Shown in pieces: positions 4,110-29,923 of a stretch of 61,790 nt of DNA. This DNA is from Planctomycetota bacterium (lineage in GTDB: Bacteria > Planctomycetota > Planctomycetia > JALXBF01). A program made the translations under genes and the position numbers. Under the pieces are notes generated by a model. The model had not been told where the DNA came from, did no database searches, and was given only the letters and a program-made list of their open reading frames with translations. Position 1 is the stretch's first letter, and the number at the start of each line of letters is the position of its first letter. The DNA lies in NCBI GenBank assembly GCA_026991575.1, contig JALXBF010000087.1, forward strand, positions 1 to 61,790, given 5' to 3'.

Positions 4110-5216
4110 TCACATCAACGCGGCCAGCGCACCACAAATGGTATCGACCATCGCACGCCGCGCATTGTAGCCCATCAGGCCGATCCGCCAGAGCTTGTCC
4201 TTCAGCTCACCAAGACCAGCGCCGACTTCGATGTTGAACTGCTCCAAGAGCGCCCGCCGCACCGCTCCGGCATCCACGCCTTCAGGCGGCAACACTGCAG
4301 TGAGCATCGGCAGCCGATAGCCCTCGGCCGCAAACAACCTGCAGCCCATCTCCTGAAGCCGCTGTTGCAGCAACTGGCCAACCTCGCGGTGCCGCTGCCA
4401 GCGAGCCTCGAGCCCTTCGGCGAAAATCAGCTCCAGCGCAGCCTGCAGGCCGTAATACAGCGTCGAACACGCGGTGTGGTGGTAGATCCGCTTCTCACCC
4501 CAATAGTCCAACAGCACGTCGATTCCCAGATAGAAACTGGACGGCGGACTCTTGCGCCGCCGTACCACATCGAGCGCCTTGGCACTGAACGTCACCGGCG
4601 CCAGGCCAGAGACCATGCCGATGCACTTCTGACTGCAGCTATACGCCAGGTCAATGTGCCAGCCGTCCACCTCCACCGGCGCACCACCCAACGACGTGAC
4701 ACAATCGACCATGAACAACGCCTCAGTGCCGGAGACCGCTTCCCCGATCTCCTCCAGCGGCTGCAGCACGCCGGTCGATGTCTCAGCGTGCACCACCGCC
4801 ACCACCCTGGCATCCGGATGAGCCTTAAGCGCATCGATCATCTTGCCTGGGTCCAGCGGCTGACCCGGCTCGTACGCGACCTCAACAACCTCCGCGCCCA
4901 GCCGCGCGGCCACCTGGCAAATACGGCGACCGAAGTAGCCACCAACACCAACCAGCACCTTGCTGCCCGGCTCAACAACGTTAACCAGGCAGGTCTCCAT
5001 GCCGGAGCTGCCCGTTCCGGAGATCGCCAGCGTAGCGTCGCTACTGGTGCGGAACAGGCGCTTCAGGCCAGCCCGGATCGAATCCAGCGTGGCCAGGAAC
5101 TCTGGATCCAGATGTCCCTGGACCGGGGTCGCCAACGCCTGCAGCACCCTGGGGTCGACATTCGCTGGGCCGGGACCGAGCAGCAAGCGTGGGGTTGCCG
5201 TGACGACTTGAGCCAT
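4110..5216 (-). CDS. Alanine-glyoxylate / serine-pyruvate aminotransferase family protein
   Basis: PLP-dependent class V aminotransferase of the AGXT/PucG type, 368 residues, probably cytoplasmic, transferring an amino group from alanine or serine to glyoxylate or pyruvate. The N-terminus has LLLGPGPANVDPRVL and GHLDPEF. SGTGSSGME (about 67-75) binds the PLP phosphate, MVDCVTSLGGAPV supplies the cofactor Asp, and SCSQKCIG carries the predicted Schiff-base Lys197. The C-terminal GAGLGELKDKLWRIGLMG is typical of the family. A longer reading begins at 5249, but the ATG at 5216 is preceded by a GGAG-type ribosome site and begins at the family N-terminus. The exact substrate cannot be told from sequence. 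Confidence 0.92.
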   Translation of the reverse strand: MAQVVTATPRLLLGPGPANVDPRVLQALATPVQGHLDPEFLATLDSIRAGLKRLFRTSSDATLAISGTGSSGMETCLVNVVEPGSKVLVGVGGYFGRRICQVAARLGAEVVEVAYEPGQPLDPGKMIDALKAHPDARVVAVVHAETSTGVLQPLEEIGEAVSGTEALFMVDCVTSLGGAPVEVDGWHIDLAYSCSQKCIGMVSGLAPVTFSAKALDVVRRRKSPPSSFYLGIDVLLDYWGEKRIYHHTACSTLYYGLQAALELIFAEGLEARWQRHREVGQLLQQRLQEMGCRLFAAEGYRLPMLTAVLPPEGVDAGAVRRALLEQFNIEVGAGLGELKDKLWRIGLMGYNARRAMVDTICGALAALM

Positions 5217-5829
5217 CGGTTCATCTCCTGCCGTTTTCGCATACGCCAACAGAGCAATGGTAAGCGCTGCGGGAAGGAGTTTCGAGGGGCAGCAGCAACG
5301 CGTGCAGCTCGATGCGACGCCAACCGGTCAAACGTCGCCGGCTCAGCCGAGCTTGCTTCCGCTTGCCCGCACCGGCGACCAGACGTACGCAGTGGCCCCT
5401 CTGCGGCCTCGCCTGGCAGAAACGGCTGCTTACGCGCGACGGCGCGGGACAACTCGGAGATCGAGGCCGCTTCGACACCGTCCGCGCTCAGGGAACGGTC
5501 CAGGGCCGTGGTCACTCGGGGAAGACATCGCTCGATCGTCGACGCGTGGCCAAAGTGCGACCGTAGCCACCTCCGTGTCGAATGACCGCTCGACACGGTC
5601 GGTGCGAGTGCCCGCTTAAGGGGCGACGCGCTGTCTCCTGACCGCGCTGCGCCGTTAAGGTCGAGGTCGCGGGTACCGGCCAGCCTCCGGCCGGCCGGAG
5701 CGACTCGCCGTGCCGCGGGCCCGGTCCCAGCGCATCCGGCTGGTGCCGGTTCGCCACAGACTGTTCCCGTCGTCGTGCCGTGGCACGGTCCGCCGGTTGC
5801 GCACCAGGCGCGCGGCAGGCCTGGGGCAG
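5217..5829. other. Intergenic region upstream of the aminotransferase
   Basis: About 610 bases with no supported gene. The open frames are arginine/proline-rich shadows without recognisable motifs. It contains a 16-base palindrome, CTCCGGCCGGCCGGAG, near 5686, which is not remarkable in such GC-rich DNA. No tRNA-like sequence was seen. Confidence 0.55.
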
Positions 5830-6690
5830 CTAGGCGATCTGGACTAGATGCGACTGGAGGACGTCCATCGTGGCTTTCGAGCCCAGCGGAATCAGGCACC
5901 CGTAGGCGGGTTGTCCGGAAGCATCAACAACCAATCGAAACCCATCGATAACCGCATAGCCTTCCGGACAGGCAATGTGCCCGGTCACAGCCAGGTGACA
6001 TCCCAATCTTTCTAAGAATCGCTCTCCCCAGGCGCGACTGGTGCGCCGCCCCCACAGCATCCGATACAGGGGAGATCCGTACACGAGCAGATCTTCGCTG
6101 AGCTGGTCGCGGTCGAAAACGGCATACTCGAAGCCATCGCGGATGACGGCGTCGGCCGGCAGGCTGTGGCAGACGAAGACGCCATTCTCCGTGCGCAGCG
6201 CGACCGGCAAGGCAGCAAACAGCAGGCGGTAGGCCCGGTGGATCTCATCGGCTCGGCTGCCGTAGGCATGCTCCAGCCCGGCGCGGAACGCGACGTCCTG
6301 AGATTCGCCGTTTTTCAGGATCCGCGTCTGACGCAGCTCGGCAACCTCATGATTGCCGGGAATGTAGTGGACCCTTTCCGGATACTGGCACTTCAGCGCA
6401 GCGATCAGGTCAACGAGCTGGTGTGAGATGCAACCGTCGTTGGGGTAGCGGAACGGCCCGTGGACGACTTCCTGGAAAACGACATGTCGTTGGCGGTGGG
6501 CGGTGAGATCGGCAAGGCGAAGGACGGTCCGGAAGTTGCGGACGTTTCCGTGCAGATCACCTACCACGAAAAGCTCGGTGGCACCGGCCGCAACGGAAAG
6601 GTCTACGATCAGGCCGTTGCGGCCCGGTTGCTGCCGGAAGTAGTCGGCTGCTTTCAGCACGGTGCGGAGGATCAGGTCGGGGTCTGCCAT
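5830..6690 (-). CDS. Calcineurin-like metallophosphoesterase
   Basis: A 286-residue protein of the Ser/Thr phosphatase-like metallophosphoesterase fold. Visible metal-site motifs are VVGDLHGN (about 42-49), IPGNHE, VCHS and AVTGHI. The second canonical motif, GDxxDRG, is not present at the expected place, which reads VVFQEVVHGP, so one metal ligand position is altered or supplied differently. There is no signal peptide, so it is probably cytoplasmic. It lies upstream of no obvious partner on the same strand. Substrate is unknown; nucleotide or phosphoprotein hydrolysis are both possible. Confidence 0.85.
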   Translation of the reverse strand: MADPDLILRTVLKAADYFRQQPGRNGLIVDLSVAAGATELFVVGDLHGNVRNFRTVLRLADLTAHRQRHVVFQEVVHGPFRYPNDGCISHQLVDLIAALKCQYPERVHYIPGNHEVAELRQTRILKNGESQDVAFRAGLEHAYGSRADEIHRAYRLLFAALPVALRTENGVFVCHSLPADAVIRDGFEYAVFDRDQLSEDLLVYGSPLYRMLWGRRTSRAWGERFLERLGCHLAVTGHIACPEGYAVIDGFRLVVDASGQPAYGCLIPLGSKATMDVLQSHLVQIA

Positions 6691-22326: not shown

Positions 22327-23688
22327 ATGGCAGACTGGCTCCTGCGCCGCTTTCAACTGGTCGAACGGGGGTCGCGTCCCGGTCGCGAGCTGCTGGCCGG
22401 GGCCACCACCTTTCTGACCATGTCCTACGTGCTCTTCGCCCAGCCGGCCATACTCAGCAACGCGGGCATGCCAGCGGCGGATGTGTTTTTCGCCACGTGC
22501 GTCACTTCGGCTGTGGGCTGCTTTCTGATGGGCTGGCTTGCCAACTACCCGGTGGCTCTGGCGCCGGCCATGGGACACAACGTCTTCTTTGCGTTTACTG
22601 TGTGCGGCGTCCTGGGCTACAGCTGGCAGCAAGCGTTGGCGGCTAACCTGCTGGCCGGTCTGTTCTTCCTGTTGACGGCGCGCGTTGGTCTGCGTGAGCA
22701 GGTGATGGCCACGGTGCCTGCCCCCCTGCGGTATGCCATCGCCGCGGGCATCGGTATGCTGATCGCTTTCCTGGGCCTGCAATGGGCCCACTTCGTACGG
22801 GACGATCCGGTCGTGCTGGTTGGCCGGGCGGAACTGGGCAACCCGGTGGCGATCGCTGCGCTGGCCGGCCTAGCCGTGGCGGCCGGCGGTCTGGCGCTCC
22901 GCCTGCCGGGCGCTTTTCTGGCGGGCATCGCCGCGTCAGCGGTGGTCCTCCACGGCTACGGGCTCTTGAAGACGGAGGGCCTCCGTCACCCGCTTGCGCT
23001 GCCGTCCCCGTCCGGGACGACGCTCTTTGCCTTCGACTTCACGGCGTTCTTCGCCGACCCGGCCGCCGTGCTCCGGGCCACCGCCATCGTGTTCGTCTTC
23101 CTGGTGCTGGACCTGTTCGACACCGTGGGCACGCTGCTGGGTCTATCGCATGCGGCCGGCCTGCTTCGCGGCGATCGACTGCCGCGGGCGGGTCAGGCGC
23201 TGCTGGCTGATGCCGCCGCTACCGTCGTGGGCTGTTGCGTGGGCACCAGCACGGTGACCTCCTACATCGAAAGCAGCGCTGGCATTGCTGCCGGGGGACG
23301 CACCGGCCTGACGGCAGTCACCGTTGGCGCCCTGTTCCTGGCGGCGCTCTTTCTGTCCCCCCTGGCAGCCGTGATCGGAGCACCGGTTGAGTTGGACGGC
23401 ACGAGCTACTATCCGACGATCGCCCCGGTCCTGATCCTGGTCGGTGCTCTCATGGCCACCGGGCTGCGCGAGGTTCGCTGGAATGACCCGTCCGAGGCGA
23501 TTCCGACCTTCCTGACAGTGATCGTCATGATGAGCACCTTCTCGATCACTGACGGCATCGCCTGGGGCTATGCCAGCTACGTCGTGCTGAAGACGCTGCA
23601 GCGGCAACGTCTGCCCATGCCGCTGTACGCGGTCAGCGGGCTGTTCTTCGTGTACTTCGTGGTCATCGAATGGCTGGCCGGTAGCTGA
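22327..23688 (+). CDS. NCS2 family purine permease (AzgA/GhxP-like)
   Basis: A 453-residue inner-membrane transporter with about 12-14 helices, expected to import hypoxanthine, guanine or adenine with protons. Family motifs include GATTFLTMSYVLFAQPAILS near the N-terminus, ALAPAMGHNVFFAFTVCG (helix 3 signature, with AMGHN where many relatives have GMGLN), VFLVLDLFDTVGTL and GTSTVTSYIESSAGIAAGGR. The substitution in the helix 3 motif may affect substrate choice. An adjacent palindrome and possible -10 suggest specific regulation. Hpt, elsewhere in the window, would use the imported base. Confidence 0.92.
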   Translation: MADWLLRRFQLVERGSRPGRELLAGATTFLTMSYVLFAQPAILSNAGMPAADVFFATCVTSAVGCFLMGWLANYPVALAPAMGHNVFFAFTVCGVLGYSWQQALAANLLAGLFFLLTARVGLREQVMATVPAPLRYAIAAGIGMLIAFLGLQWAHFVRDDPVVLVGRAELGNPVAIAALAGLAVAAGGLALRLPGAFLAGIAASAVVLHGYGLLKTEGLRHPLALPSPSGTTLFAFDFTAFFADPAAVLRATAIVFVFLVLDLFDTVGTLLGLSHAAGLLRGDRLPRAGQALLADAAATVVGCCVGTSTVTSYIESSAGIAAGGRTGLTAVTVGALFLAALFLSPLAAVIGAPVELDGTSYYPTIAPVLILVGALMATGLREVRWNDPSEAIPTFLTVIVMMSTFSITDGIAWGYASYVVLKTLQRQRLPMPLYAVSGLFFVYFVVIEWLAGS

Positions 23689-24644: not shown

Positions 24645-26153
24645 TCAACTGAGCCGTTCGATCAAGTTGCGTGTGATCCGCTGCACGCGCGGATCGGGCC
24701 CGTGCGGGCGCGAGTAGTGTGACCAGGGGATCCAGTGGCCGGGCGGGCTGGCAAGCCCCTGGGCCCAGTAGATCGTGGCGCTGTTGAAGACCCAGTTGCC
24801 CCGCGGTCCGGGGTAGATTGTCGCCGCATACCGACCCGCTCGGGTGCCACCGGCCCAGACCAGGCCTTCAGCCAGAACCACGAGCCCTTCGCGGTGCAGA
24901 TCCGGGTCGCCGTGGTACTCCCAGCCAACCAAGCCCGGGATGCTCTCCCCCGCACGCATGCCGGTGCCCTCGAACACCCAGTGGTCGGGTCGGACACAGG
25001 TCCAGTCCCCCCCGCCGTTGAACGGCACCACCGTCCGCGCCCCGATGATCGTCCGCTCATCCGGTCCCACCCCCTGGAGGCCGTCGTAGACGTCTGCGTA
25101 AGCAGCCCGCTCCTCAGGCCGAAGTACCCCGTACGCCCCAGCGCGCGTCAGGATCCGGTTCGGGCGGCCGTCGGAGGAAGGACTGAACGGCGCGACGATA
25201 AAGACCGAATTGGCACTGAGCCATAGCACGTTCACCCCCCGCTCGATCGCCTGCCGCACCGCCTCGTACTGGCGCAGGTCCCAGTACTCGTCATGTCCCA
25301 CGCTGATGAAGATCTTCACCCGTTCCAGGAACGAAACGCCGAGCACATCACTGTTGGAGCAGTACGTGACGTCGTAACCGTGCTGTTCCAGCCAGTAGCA
25401 CAGCGGGAACTCCCAGAGCAGGAACTCGCCCGAGCCGAGGCTGAGCGGATTGCGCATGATCTGCGGATACAGTCCGTAGGGCCGATCGAAGCTGACCTGC
25501 ACGCCCGGATAATGAGCGGCTTTCGGGTGAGTGTACAGGGAGTCGTTCTCTGGCCAGCGGTTGTACGCCTGCCAGGTGTTGTCGCTGCATTGAAAGAGAA
25601 TCTGAGCCCGGCGGCCGTCACGGACAATGAAGATCACGTAGCTCTGCCAGTACGGCTCTGTGCGGCTGCGGGGCACCGTGGTCAGCTTGCCCAGGTAGAC
25701 GCCCGACGGCCAGTCCTCCGGAATGCGCAGCGTGACCGACGGCTCCCACCGACACTCCCGGAGGCGGCCGGGGTCTGGGCCTCGGGGGGGCACCGGCTGA
25801 CGTCGCCCGCGGATCGGGCCAAGTCGAACCATGTGCCGCGCCCCTTTGCCGCCGTACCAGCCGCAGCGGTAGATGTCCACCAGGAAGGCACGCTCCGGAT
25901 CGGTGCTGACGCAGATGCCCAGCTCCTCGCCGGCTGCCACCGACTGCCGCGTGCAGTAGCCCTCGATCAGACTCGTGCGGTACGGACTGGCGTTGGGCCA
26001 GACGCGCGTCAGCTGCCAGTCCGTGGTACCGGGCCGACGGTTCTCGTCACGGATCAACGTCGGCTGAGGATCGCTTGCGGCCCGGGCCGTGGTAGGCCAC
26101 AGTGCACCGGCGACCGCCCCAACCGCCCCGCGCAGAAGGTCGCGGCGATTCAT
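24645..26153 (-). CDS. Tat-exported N,N-dimethylformamidase beta subunit-like protein
   Basis: A 502-residue protein with a Tat-like signal (MNRRDLLRGAVGAVAGAL). The remainder matches the pattern of the large-subunit-like C-terminal domain of N,N-dimethylformamidase: DIYRCGWYGGKGARHM, LFQCSDNTWQAYNRWPENDSLY, SNSDVLG, FISVGHDEYWDLRQYEAV and the C-terminal GNWVFNSATIYWAQGL. In bacteria many such proteins have no tested activity, so amide hydrolysis should not be assumed. It ends 27 bases from the convergent esterase-like gene. Confidence 0.83.
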   Translation of the reverse strand: MNRRDLLRGAVGAVAGALWPTTARAASDPQPTLIRDENRRPGTTDWQLTRVWPNASPYRTSLIEGYCTRQSVAAGEELGICVSTDPERAFLVDIYRCGWYGGKGARHMVRLGPIRGRRQPVPPRGPDPGRLRECRWEPSVTLRIPEDWPSGVYLGKLTTVPRSRTEPYWQSYVIFIVRDGRRAQILFQCSDNTWQAYNRWPENDSLYTHPKAAHYPGVQVSFDRPYGLYPQIMRNPLSLGSGEFLLWEFPLCYWLEQHGYDVTYCSNSDVLGVSFLERVKIFISVGHDEYWDLRQYEAVRQAIERGVNVLWLSANSVFIVAPFSPSSDGRPNRILTRAGAYGVLRPEERAAYADVYDGLQGVGPDERTIIGARTVVPFNGGGDWTCVRPDHWVFEGTGMRAGESIPGLVGWEYHGDPDLHREGLVVLAEGLVWAGGTRAGRYAATIYPGPRGNWVFNSATIYWAQGLASPPGHWIPWSHYSRPHGPDPRVQRITRNLIERLS

Positions 26154-26351
26154 CGCAGCTGCTCCCCGCTAAGGACCACACCGACCATGAGAGCCGCCTC
26201 GGCGGCAGGCGCGCAGAGAAGAACCGCCCGCACTCCGAGTCCCGCACGGCTGCGATCTTACCGCGCCCGGGAATGTCGTGCCGAAGAGGGACTCAGACCG
26301 CAGGCGGTCTAGCGCAGATCGTTCCGGTCACCTGATGCACGCCGGCCAGCC

Positions 26352-26828
26352 CTAACCGCAGGTCTGACGGATCGCCTCCACGATCTCGTCATCACTGCGC
26401 TGCTGACCAAGATCGTTGACCTTGACCCACTTCACGATGCCGTCCTTGCCGACGACGATCGTTGCCCGAGCGGTGAAGCCCTGGTCGTCAAGGTACACGC
26501 CGTACTTGCTGGCCACCGCACCCTTGGGATGGAAGTCGGCCAGCAGTGGGTAGCTGATGCCACCGAGCTTCTCGGCAAACGCCTTCAGTGTCGGGACCGA
26601 GTCCACACTGATGCCCAGGACCTGGGCATCCACGCCCGCGAACTTCTCGGCATCCTGTTCGCAGGCGGGCAGCTCGCGGCTTCAGACCGGGGTGAACGCC
26701 AGGGGGAAGAAGAACAGGACCACGTTCTTCTTGCCCAGGAACTCGTTCAGCGAAACGTCACGGTCTAGCGTCGATGGCAGCGAGAAGTCGGGTGCCTTCT
26801 CGCCCACCTTGATCGGGTTCAGCGACAT
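26352..26828 (-). CDS. Peroxiredoxin with predicted selenocysteine at the peroxidatic site
   Basis: AhpC/TSA-fold peroxiredoxin of 158 residues if TGA at 26682-26684 is read through. Residues 1-48 run from MSLNPIKVGEKAPDF to FFFPLAFTPV; the frame continues unbroken as SRELPACEQD and AQVLGISVDSVPTL to GIVKWVKVNDLG. The TGA falls at residue 49, the Cys of the PxxxTxxC motif (P42, T46), and the helper Arg121 is present in FTARATIVV. A possible resolving Cys56 lies seven residues on. There is no signal peptide, so it should reduce hydroperoxides in the cytoplasm. Its ATG follows AGGAGG; the in-frame Met at 26864 is rejected. A hairpin starts 15 bases after TGA. A simple nonsense mutation is the alternative. 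Confidence 0.85.
26633..26667 (-). promoter_or_regulatory. Candidate bacterial SECIS hairpin of the peroxiredoxin
   Basis: An uninterrupted 11-bp stem (26667-26657 with 26643-26633, one U-G pair) encloses a 13-base loop beginning AGG. The loop starts 26 bases after the TGA. Bacterial SECIS elements typically have an apical loop 16-37 bases from UGA, of 3-14 bases, with a G in the first two positions; all of these are met. Confidence 0.7.
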
Positions 26829-26903
26829 AGCTGGCTCCTCCTTTCTCAGTTCCGCCCAAAGCACCGATGCCGGACATCCCGGGCGCTGGCGTACGGTTCT
26901 CAG

Positions 26904-26909
26904 ATTCTA
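26904..26909 (-). promoter_or_regulatory. Possible -10 element for the peroxiredoxin
   Basis: TAGAAT on the minus strand lies about 75 bases before the peroxiredoxin start. No well-spaced -35 element was found, so this is tentative. Confidence 0.2.
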
Positions 26910-27023
26910 CGCCACCGTCAACGGCCAGGCGGCCCAGTCCGGTTGGCCGGGGCGCTTGATACTCAGAGGAGCCGACTCCCCGCAACTGTTGCCCCCGGCA
27001 GTCAGCGATCCGGAGGCCCAACC

Positions 27024-28445
27024 ATGCACCGCTTCTCGGCCACCATGAGCACGGTGCTCGTCGCCACGACACTGCTGGCCGCAACCGATCCGGCAGGCTA
27101 CGCTCAGCAGCGGGAACGCCCCGACAATGAGACGTTCCTCCACCAGTCGCCCCGCGTTGGCGAACTCATTCCGGACGTGATCGGTTACGACGAGCAAGGT
27201 GAGCCGTTCCCGCTGCGAGCCAGGCTACGCGGCAGCTATACGGTACTGGTCTTCGGCTGCCTGACGTGACCGCCTTTCTTGCGAAAGGTCCCCGGTCTGG
27301 AGGCCCTCCAACGCGACTACGGCCCGAAAGGCGTCAAGTTCTACTACGTCTACAAGGCGCTGGCACACCCGGAACTGCACGGCTATGTCACGCCTTACAC
27401 GCTCCAGGAGCGGCTCGCACACGTACGCGAAGCGCGCCGCCGGCTACGCACGCAGATCCCCTGGATCGTGGACGCCATGGATAACCGGATCAAACACGCC
27501 TTCGGCGACCGTCCCAACTCGGAGTTCCTGATCGACCCGGAAGGCATCGTGCTGGTGAAGCGAGCCTGGAGCAATCCGCAGGCGTTACGTGCCGATCTGG
27601 AACGCATCGTCGGCCCGGTCGCGCAGCGTACCGACCCGGACGAGCTCGAGCTCGGCCGGTTGCCCGGCCGCTCCGAAGCGCGACCGGCAGAGCTGCCACG
27701 GCTGGAGCTACCGGCGGCGCTGGTACCGGTCCGCGTTCGCCCCCATCTGGCCACGAGCACGGAGCCGTTCTACGCGAAGCTCCGCGTCGAGGCCGAGCGG
27801 TCCGTGCTTCGCACCGGGTCCGGAAAGCTGTACTTTGGCCTGCGCCTGGACCCACTCTACGGCGTGCACTGGAACAACCTGGTCGGCCCAGTGAAGGTCT
27901 CGATCGACGCTGCCGACAGAATCCGCGTCTCCAAGACAGCCCTGGTCGCGCCTCGGCCAGAGCAGGACTCGGACGCCGCGCCCCGCGAATTCCTGCTCGA
28001 CGTCACGGATGCACAGCGCGGCGCAACGCTCCGCGTGACCGTGCACTACGCGGCGTGCCACGGCAAAGAAGGCTGGTGCAAGATCCTGGCCCAGCAGTTC
28101 ACGATCATCCTGGAGCGGGACCCGGATGCGGGCCGCGTCCTACGCGGCCGAGCACGCCGGCCAGTCCGGTCCGAACGGGCGACAGACGGCGACCAGGCCG
28201 CTCGCCGCAGCGGGCCACTGCTACGCGGCACGGTCGTGCAAGTCGGATCCGGCCAGCTGCTGCTCCGCACCGCCGACGGCGATACCATAAAGCTGCGGCT
28301 CCTGCCCGGCTCCTACGCCGTGCAGCGTGGCAAGCGGGTGGCGTTGCAAACGGTGCGTAGCGGCCAGCGGGTCGCAGTGCGGACGATCGCAACCGGGGCA
28401 ACCCCAGCGGTACGCTACGTGCTGCTGTTGCCGTCCGAACCGTAA
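27024..28445 (+). CDS. Exported deiodinase-like selenoprotein with DsbD-alpha-like domain
   Basis: A 473-residue protein if TGA at 27267-27269 is read as selenocysteine (Sec82). A signal peptide (about 1-28) suggests export. The thioredoxin-like domain (about 38-200) has VLVFGCLTUPPF, matching the GSCTUPPF site of iodothyronine deiodinases, AHP at 114-116 where deiodinases have EAHP, and VDAMDN (149-154) with a following AFGDRP, like the deiodinase MDN and AYG segments. A second domain (about 240-365) resembles the DsbD N-terminal domain and has VTVHYAACHGKEGWCK with Cys345 and Cys352. A beta-rich C-terminus (about 400-473) follows. The frame is intact before and after TGA. The start has GGAGG at 27012. 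Substrate is unknown; thyroid hormone is not implied. Confidence 0.85.
27268..27310 (+). promoter_or_regulatory. Candidate SECIS region of the deiodinase-like gene
   Basis: Two hairpins follow the TGA. The first pairs GACCG (27268-27272) with CGGTC (27293-27297) around an inner CCTTTC/GAAAGG stem (27273-27288, loop TTGC). The second is TGGAG (27298-27302) with CTCCA (27306-27310) around loop GCC, whose G starts 34 bases after TGA and fits the bacterial SECIS pattern. Which is used cannot be told by eye. Confidence 0.5.
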
Positions 28446-28480
28446 GATGCGGCAGCGGTTCTCGTCGGAGGAACCAGACC

Positions 28481-29482
28481 GTGCGGGTAGCGGTTCTTGG
28501 CGCAGGCGCCATGGGCACGGCGTGCGCCCGGCTACTGGCGACCAAAGAGACGGTCTCGGTGCTACTGTGGTGCCGCCGCGGCGAGTTGGCCGAACAGCTG
28601 CGCCGACGGCGTGAGAACCACGTGTACCTGCCCGGGGTCCGACTGCCTGAACAGATCACGATCACCGCAGAGACCGCGCCGCTGCGCGAAGCCGACCTGT
28701 ACGTGGTGGCAATCCCCTGCGTGCACCTGCGCAGCGGCCTGACCCCCCTGGCCGGTTTGCTACGCGCCAACCCGGCGCCGGCCGTCAGCGTGATTAAGGG
28801 CCTGGAACGGGAAACATTCTTGCGCCCTAGCCAGATCATCTGCGAGGTAGCCGGCCAGCGCCCTGTTGCCGTGCTCAGCGGGCCCAGCCACGCGGAGGAA
28901 TTCAGCCGAGACCTGCCGACCACCGTCGTGGTTGCCTGCCAGGACGAGCGACTGGCCCGACAGATCCAGCAACTGTTTGCCACCCGTCGGTTCCGCGTGT
29001 ACACCAATCCGGATGTCGTCGGGGTTGAGCTGGCCGGAGCATTGAAGAACGTCATCGGCATCGCCGCAGGCGTGTGTGACGGGCTGAAGTTCGGAGACAA
29101 CGCCAAAGCCTCGCTGCTGACCAGAGGCCTGGTGGAGATCACGCGCTTCGGAACCGCACTCGGGGGTCTCCGGGAAACGTTCTGGGGCTTGGCCGGCCTG
29201 GGTGATCTGATCACCACCTGCGTCAGCCCCTACGGGCGAAACCGGTCGGTGGGCGAGGCGCTGGGCCGCGGCGAGCCGCTGGATCAGATCCTGGCCCGAA
29301 TGCAAGCCGTGCCCGAAGGCGTCTGGACGTGCAAGACCGTGCACGATATCGCCCGCGCACGGGGCATCGAGATGCCGATCACCGAGCAGGTCTATCGCGT
29401 GCTCTACGAAGGCGCCGACCCGCTGGCCGCCGTCGACGCGCTGATGACCCGCGAACTCAAAGCCGAGCACGCGGCCGACTGA
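28481..29482 (+). CDS. gpsA: Glycerol-3-phosphate dehydrogenase [NAD(P)+]
   Basis: A 333-residue cytoplasmic enzyme reducing dihydroxyacetone phosphate to sn-glycerol 3-phosphate for phospholipid synthesis. The nucleotide loop is VAVLGAGAMGTA (3-14). Substrate-domain motifs include LSGPSHAEEFSRDLPT, VELAGALKNVIGIAAGVCDG with the catalytic Lys, and GLAGLGDLITTCVSPYGRNR. Length matches the family. It uses a GTG start preceded by CGGAGGA. It begins 35 bases after the deiodinase-like gene and could be co-transcribed with it. Confidence 0.96.
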   Translation: MRVAVLGAGAMGTACARLLATKETVSVLLWCRRGELAEQLRRRRENHVYLPGVRLPEQITITAETAPLREADLYVVAIPCVHLRSGLTPLAGLLRANPAPAVSVIKGLERETFLRPSQIICEVAGQRPVAVLSGPSHAEEFSRDLPTTVVVACQDERLARQIQQLFATRRFRVYTNPDVVGVELAGALKNVIGIAAGVCDGLKFGDNAKASLLTRGLVEITRFGTALGGLRETFWGLAGLGDLITTCVSPYGRNRSVGEALGRGEPLDQILARMQAVPEGVWTCKTVHDIARARGIEMPITEQVYRVLYEGADPLAAVDALMTRELKAEHAAD

Positions 29483-29565
29483 AGCGGCCCTACGCGCCGG
29501 CTCAGGGCCGGGCAGGCCGCTTCCCCGCAAAGGCCGCCGCCGCTGCCGGTCGGGCACCAGCCGGC

Positions 29566-29571
29566 TACAAT
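29566..29571 (+). promoter_or_regulatory. Possible -10 element for the small exported gene
   Basis: TACAAT lies 40 bases before the start at 29612, with a weak CTGCCG about 17 bases upstream as a -35 candidate. Confidence 0.3.
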
Positions 29572-29611
29572 CGAACGTATAGAAATCGGGGATTGCTCGG
29601 AGTGCGACAAG

Positions 29612-29923
29612 ATGCCTCGACTGCTAGCTCTCGTAGCCACAGGGCTTGCGCTGGTCGGTTGGTCTGCCGCTGTTCTGGCCTCAACGCCGGCACACTCGCC
29701 CGGTAGAGCTCACGTCATCTGGTCGGTCCTCGCGCAGCAACAACCGCAGCAGCAACAACCGGCGCAGGGCGCGCCGCCAGAACGGCCCGGCAAGCCGCGC
29801 TGGAAGGGCCACCGGCTCAAAGGGCACGAAAAGCCGGTGACGCAGACGATCCTGACCATGTTTGCCTTGATCGGCGTGCTGTACACGATCGCCCGCACGG
29901 CCCGCCGCGCATACGGCGACTGA
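29612..29923 (+). CDS. Small membrane-associated hypothetical protein
   Basis: A 103-residue protein with an N-terminal hydrophobic signal (LLALVATGLALVGWSAAVLA), a Gln/Pro-rich linker (AQQQPQQQQPAQ), a basic stretch (KPRWKGHRLKGHEK) and a C-terminal hydrophobic segment (ILTMFALIGVLYTIA). It may be anchored in the membrane by the C-terminal helix. Function unknown. The start follows the possible -10 element, and composition fits a real gene. Confidence 0.6.
   Translation: MPRLLALVATGLALVGWSAAVLASTPAHSPGRAHVIWSVLAQQQPQQQQPAQGAPPERPGKPRWKGHRLKGHEKPVTQTILTMFALIGVLYTIARTARRAYGD

Follow-up and report, generated by a model that had tools for sequence, protein, structure and literature searches.

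A predicted AhpE-type selenocysteine peroxiredoxin in a Planctomycetota genome with a complete selenocysteine machinery

The window analysed here is a 61,790-nucleotide stretch of a Planctomycetota draft genome (contig JALXBF010000087.1). Twenty-one PSCyt2 matches point to the same phylum. A gene located at 26352..26828 on its minus strand, a strand left unstated in the first-pass annotation, almost certainly encodes an AhpE-type peroxiredoxin with selenocysteine (Sec) as residue 49 of 158. This reading is based on the placement of an in-frame TGA, homology that extends across it, the Sec machinery of the genome, relatives with TGA at the same codon, constraint after the TGA and covariation in a downstream hairpin, all of which are sequence data. 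The gene adjoins a second Sec candidate, and both belong to a genome with the full set of Sec machinery genes. The reading frame starts with ATG (26828–26826), is broken by a single TGA (26684–26682) that leaves 48 residues before and 109 after it, and ends with TAG (26354–26352). A likely ribosome-binding site, AGGAGG, is found 8 nt 5' of the ATG (26837..26842, minus strand).

The read-through product matches the Pfam AhpC-TSA family with 125 bits (cut-off, 26), and the match spans the TGA, in agreement with the earlier claim that frame and homology run on for 109 residues past it. The surrounding motif, FPLAFTPV-U-SREL, contains the PxxxT/SxxC(U) signature; therefore, the TGA (26682..26684, minus strand) occupies the position of the peroxidatic Cys. 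The first-pass annotation had placed it exactly at the catalytic Cys of PxxxTxxC and had proposed an alignment with Cys-containing homologues, and the codon alignment with relatives bears this out: TGC or TGT is found at this codon in the aligned Cys homologues. A scan of the window for TGAs between open frames gave three, of which two seem to be ordinary gene ends. A looser scan returned 10, among which homology support was obtained only for those at 26682 and 27267, while the rest were judged by context.

Searches of increasing breadth were used to place the gene among its relatives. The near-genome search (59 genomes; E ≤ 1e-20) gave matches in 11 genomes, with TGA in the window gene only, and the class-wide search (397 genomes; E ≤ 1e-27) returned no close relative besides the window gene, its two other matches (40–42% identity) both having Cys at the site. 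In the phylum search (392 genomes; E ≤ 1e-24), 50 genomes had a match, and one in-frame TGA was present in 22 of the 51 match rows. The aligned codon was read in 30 fetched rows of these 51, and it is TGA in 21, including the window gene, and TGC or TGT in nine. It is the TGA at this codon in 20 further fetched genes that lifts the observation above chance. The nearest relative, from genome G417, is 63% identical. Over all the loci examined, 55 sites were read (29 TGA, 25 Cys and one AGC). A relative from Geothermarchaeota (L036, 5004–5471) carries AGC (Ser) at the peroxidatic codon, and this protein is possibly inactive or has another function.

In a tree of 53 rows, from which L038 and the second match in L062 were left out, the 21 Sec genes group together with one Cys gene (L062; support, 89/94), although the tree program warned of long branches for L062, L082 and elsewhere in the tree. 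Over these rows the Sec label requires three changes, compared with a mean of 17.8 changes after shuffling. Selection was assessed for nine Sec gene pairs over the 39 codons that follow the TGA. All eight pairs that differ in amino acids have dN below dS, the ninth pair has no amino-acid change, and dN/dS is roughly 0.01–0.3 in seven of the nine; for the window gene and G417, dN is 0.35 and dS 1.11, the latter near saturation. Such values point to protein-level constraint (purifying selection) that persists past the TGA. These results bear directly on the possibility that the gene is a pseudogene, or that a sequencing or assembly error has produced a TGA from a Cys codon. The TGA is indeed one base away from TGC and TGT, and an error at this codon of a 191-contig draft would be compatible with one genome alone. 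However, a broken codon is very improbable given the TGA at the same place in the further fetched genes, which come from many genera and families, the frame that stays open for 109 codons, the relatives' dN below dS past the TGA, and the presence of the whole Sec machinery in the genome.

The source genome (4.96 Mb, 97.8% complete) was searched as a whole for selA, selB, selD and tRNA-Sec, a check suggested in the first-pass annotation, and all four were found, each over its curated cut-off. They are encoded on one strand of contig C184 within 4.8 kb (25019–29790), in the order selD (25019–25945; 358.5 bits, cut-off 125), selB (26206–28098; 383.5 bits, cut-off 242.25), selA (28188–29546; 559.2 bits, cut-off 267.9) and tRNA-Sec (29695–29790; 73.3 bits, cut-off 47). 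The last was also called as tRNA-Sec by ARAGORN, with the anticodon tca (UCA). The tRNA-Sec family also gave one match just above the 47-bit cut-off, at 47.6 bits, and 15 weaker ones; these are probably other tRNAs. The selD gene itself contains one in-frame TGA, which sits in CAG-U-AGK, a site we take to be the place of the catalytic Cys/Sec, and is followed by a hairpin. Within the phylum set, selA exceeded the cut-off in seven of nine Cys genomes and, of the 20 Sec genomes whose loci were fetched, in 18; none was found in G417, the genome of the nearest relative (80% complete). As selA occurs in Sec and Cys genomes alike, it fits Sec use without discriminating between the two.

A TGA that is read through leaves by itself the inserted residue unspecified, and a genome-wide reassignment of UGA (e.g., to Trp or Gly, as in codes 4 or 25) would also account for an open frame. 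This is extremely improbable, since other genes of the window, among them the permease at 23688 and gpsA at 29482, appear to terminate in TGA, the Cys of homologues aligns with the TGA, and tRNA-Sec, SelA, SelB and SelD are all present.

Downstream of the TGA, a SECIS-like hairpin was identified by folding and covariation (26633..26667, minus strand). It begins 14 nt past the TGA, pairs 26667–26657 with 26643–26633 in an 11-bp stem (−18.6 kcal/mol), and carries a 13-nt loop, AGGAUGCCGAGAA, at a TGA-to-loop distance of 25 nt. The stem, the 13-base loop and the early loop G are as described earlier. A hairpin of SECIS geometry and at least this stability occurs at 21 of 8569 in-frame codon positions of 18 other window genes. 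The total folding energy of the region is unremarkable against dinucleotide shuffles (z, −1.20 and −0.79), and against synonymous-codon shuffles the window gene alone is not significant (z, −0.88; p = 0.18). Across genes, the same synonymous-codon control gave a mean z of −1.47 for 29 TGA sites versus −0.27 for 26 others (Mann–Whitney p = 3.7e-5, an overstated value because the compared genes are related and not independent).

When the window hairpin register was applied to the alignment of 21 Sec genes, 69.7% of the cells were paired, versus 28.6–49.4% after sliding by 1–3 columns. Nine pairs have changes on both sides, and the covariation score is 0.297 versus 0.162 in shuffles, none of 500 shuffles scoring as high. 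With the window gene removed, 68.2% of the cells are paired in the remaining 20 Sec genes (53.6% for the next best of 13 offsets), whereas the register is weaker in 10 AhpE-like Cys genes (46.4%). RNAalifold returned no consensus structure for the 21 Sec genes; naming the register and counting pairs succeeded where it failed, partly because the stem edges vary between genes. According to the available part of PMC13188914, the bacterial SECIS consensus has an apical loop of 3–9 nt located 16–37 nt from the UGA, a stem of 4–16 bp, an energy of −7.5 kcal/mol or lower, and a G within the first two loop positions. The hairpin agrees with these published values in distance (25 nt), stem (11 bp), energy (−18.6 kcal/mol) and loop start (AGG...), but its 13-nt loop in the best fold exceeds the apical-loop limit; a GG/CC mini-stem would make a 3-nt loop at a cost of 1.2 kcal/mol. 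The hairpin had been called a matching SECIS, and this stands as regards the register common to other Sec genes and the remaining constraints, but not the loop size. Taken with the TGA of relatives and the Sec machinery, the shared register supports the selenocysteine peroxiredoxin proposed in the first-pass annotation. In every one of the 21 Sec genes from the phylum set, the sequence at the Sec codon is TGAAG (window 26680–26684; alignment A1, columns 1–5), and the residue after Sec is always Ser (AGC in 19, AGT in two).

A structure model of the protein, built with Cys replacing Sec, reached a pLDDT of 95.5 and a pTM of 0.91. Its best PDB match is AhpE of M. tuberculosis (TM, 0.91–0.95; 37% identity), which is also the best sequence match. 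We infer actual Sec insertion, peroxidase activity and reduction as follows. SelB with Sec-tRNA(UCA) would bind the hairpin just past the UGA, and the ribosome would put selenocysteine at residue 49 in place of stopping. Pro42, Thr46 and an almost invariant Arg (R121; alignment A2) would prime the selenolate, which would then attack the peroxide and turn into selenenic acid; in a 1-Sec cycle, this acid would be reduced by a thioredoxin-like partner or a low-molecular-weight thiol.

Judged from the distribution of Cys residues, the most likely course is a 1-Sec cycle completed by an external reductant, because a second Cys is not conserved across the Sec clade. The alternative departs from it in the last step only: Sec would be inserted, and the cycle would run via an internal selenenylsulfide to a Cys residue of the window protein, either Cys56 (+7) or the C-terminal Cys157 (+108). 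It is consistent with the Cys at +7 that the window gene has in common with L059 and L062, with the Cys at +6 in seven of the eight AhpE-like Cys relatives listed (L062, with +7, being the eighth), and with a Cys near +104 to +108, which is frequent among Sec members. Nevertheless, such a cycle is rather unlikely, as no Cys position conserved across the whole Sec clade was found, the Sec member L072 has no other Cys within the examined span, and the title of the closest structure describes AhpE as a 1-Cys peroxiredoxin. In the window member, residue 56 or 157 may serve as a local resolving Cys. The family tree can be regarded as a natural experiment on the change from Cys to Sec, in which a second Cys is retained nearby in the listed Cys relatives but not in most of the Sec clade.

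Bacterial Sec-peroxiredoxins (Prx, PF00578, TxxU) are already known, according to the part of PMC13188914 that was available; the first-pass annotation likewise noted peroxiredoxin selenoproteins in some bacteria. Both these TxxU proteins and deiodinase-like selenoproteins are published in the consulted portions of PMC13188914, PMC1794560 and PMC1088965, and planctomycetes with Sec machinery in that of PMC4807772. The window protein resembles the bacterial Sec-peroxiredoxin, as far as that is described in the same part of PMC13188914, in the PxxxTxxU motif, the AhpC-TSA domain, the UGA at the peroxidatic Cys and the hairpin right after it. Unlike it, the window clade is AhpE-like, and the window protein is over no NCBIfam Prx cut-off, including that of PrxU NF040737 (75.7 bits; cut-off, 270); none of three tested Sec members (the window gene, L059 and L063) reached the NCBIfam cut-offs. 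Compared with AhpE of M. tuberculosis (Rv2238c; 1xxu, 1xvw, 5id2), the best match in sequence and fold, it has the same single-domain length, but AhpE has Cys where the window gene has UGA/Sec. The addition made here is a Sec clade of the AhpE type that spans several families of the phylum. Since no NCBIfam Sec-Prx model scores over its cut-off on the tested members, standard annotation would probably leave a truncated gene; as it tends to split such genes, a real antioxidant enzyme would be missed. A broader reading, held with somewhat less than even confidence, is that this clade represents an old AhpE Sec form of the phylum, in which Sec may be the sole redox residue in some members, the resolving Cys at +6 was lost upon the gain of Sec, the SECIS register is centred about 31 nt after the UGA, its loop being long and open in this lineage, and annotation probably leaves the gene truncated.

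The second Sec candidate of the window (P0002; 27024..28445, plus strand) is a divergent, exported-looking, deiodinase-like gene, with 195 bp between its start codon and that of the peroxiredoxin gene. It matches T4_deiodinase just over the cut-off (27.8 bits; cut-off, 27), and codon alignment places its in-frame TGA (27267..27269, plus strand) at the deiodinase-like Cys/Sec position, VFGCLT-U-PPF. Matches were found in 16 of 392 phylum genomes (E ≤ 1e-12), its own included; at the aligned codon, 15 of the 16 have TGA and one has TGC. In the synonymous-codon folding control, the window copy was flat (z, 0.05). The TGA before PPF and the T4_deiodinase match liken it to bacterial deiodinase-like selenoproteins, which are known (PF00837; PMC1088965, as far as its available text goes). 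However, it is longer, exported-looking, and its C-terminal stretch is weakly DUF5818-like (below the cut-off); against NCBIfam deiodinase_rel it scores 56.2 bits, far under the cut-off of 250. The literature search listed no work on deiodinase-like proteins in planctomycetes. A conserved pairing of the two genes was considered and rejected, as no deiodinase-like match flanks the 29 peroxiredoxin loci (about 1.5 kb on each side). Weak peroxiredoxin matches were seen at four of 15 deiodinase-like loci, three inside the deiodinase-like gene and one beside it (L044, 22% identity). One deiodinase-like relative (L058) has both TAG and TGA in frame, the TAG reflecting either decay or an overlong match.

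In the whole genome, 14 AhpC-TSA matches were found, five of which contain TGA, always at a redox site. Besides the window gene, these are four thioredoxin-fold genes (L094, L098, L099 and L104; contigs C65, C166, C190 and C67), with the sites STPG-U-TIEA (exported-looking, PrxQ-like), WGAW-U-PVC, SFLQ-U-GGC and RHLN-U-IAC. At least six thioredoxin-fold proteins of the genome appear to contain Sec. Hairpins follow the TGA in the four genes, and those of L098, L099 and L104 have GGUC or GUU loops. For formate dehydrogenase alpha, no internal stop was found in 12 match rows of this genome, and the over-cut-off match has no in-frame TGA.

Four contigs of Poribacteria (L037, L039, L040 and L041; about 4890–5915 each) carry an exported-looking frame whose two PrxQ-like domains each have a TGA at the peroxidatic site (FTGG-U-TTEL and FGRG-U-TAQV types). 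The frame is a candidate double-Sec peroxiredoxin; the literature search listed no work on Sec-peroxiredoxin in Poribacteria. Three of the four Poribacteria genomes with the two-TGA frame have selA over the cut-off.
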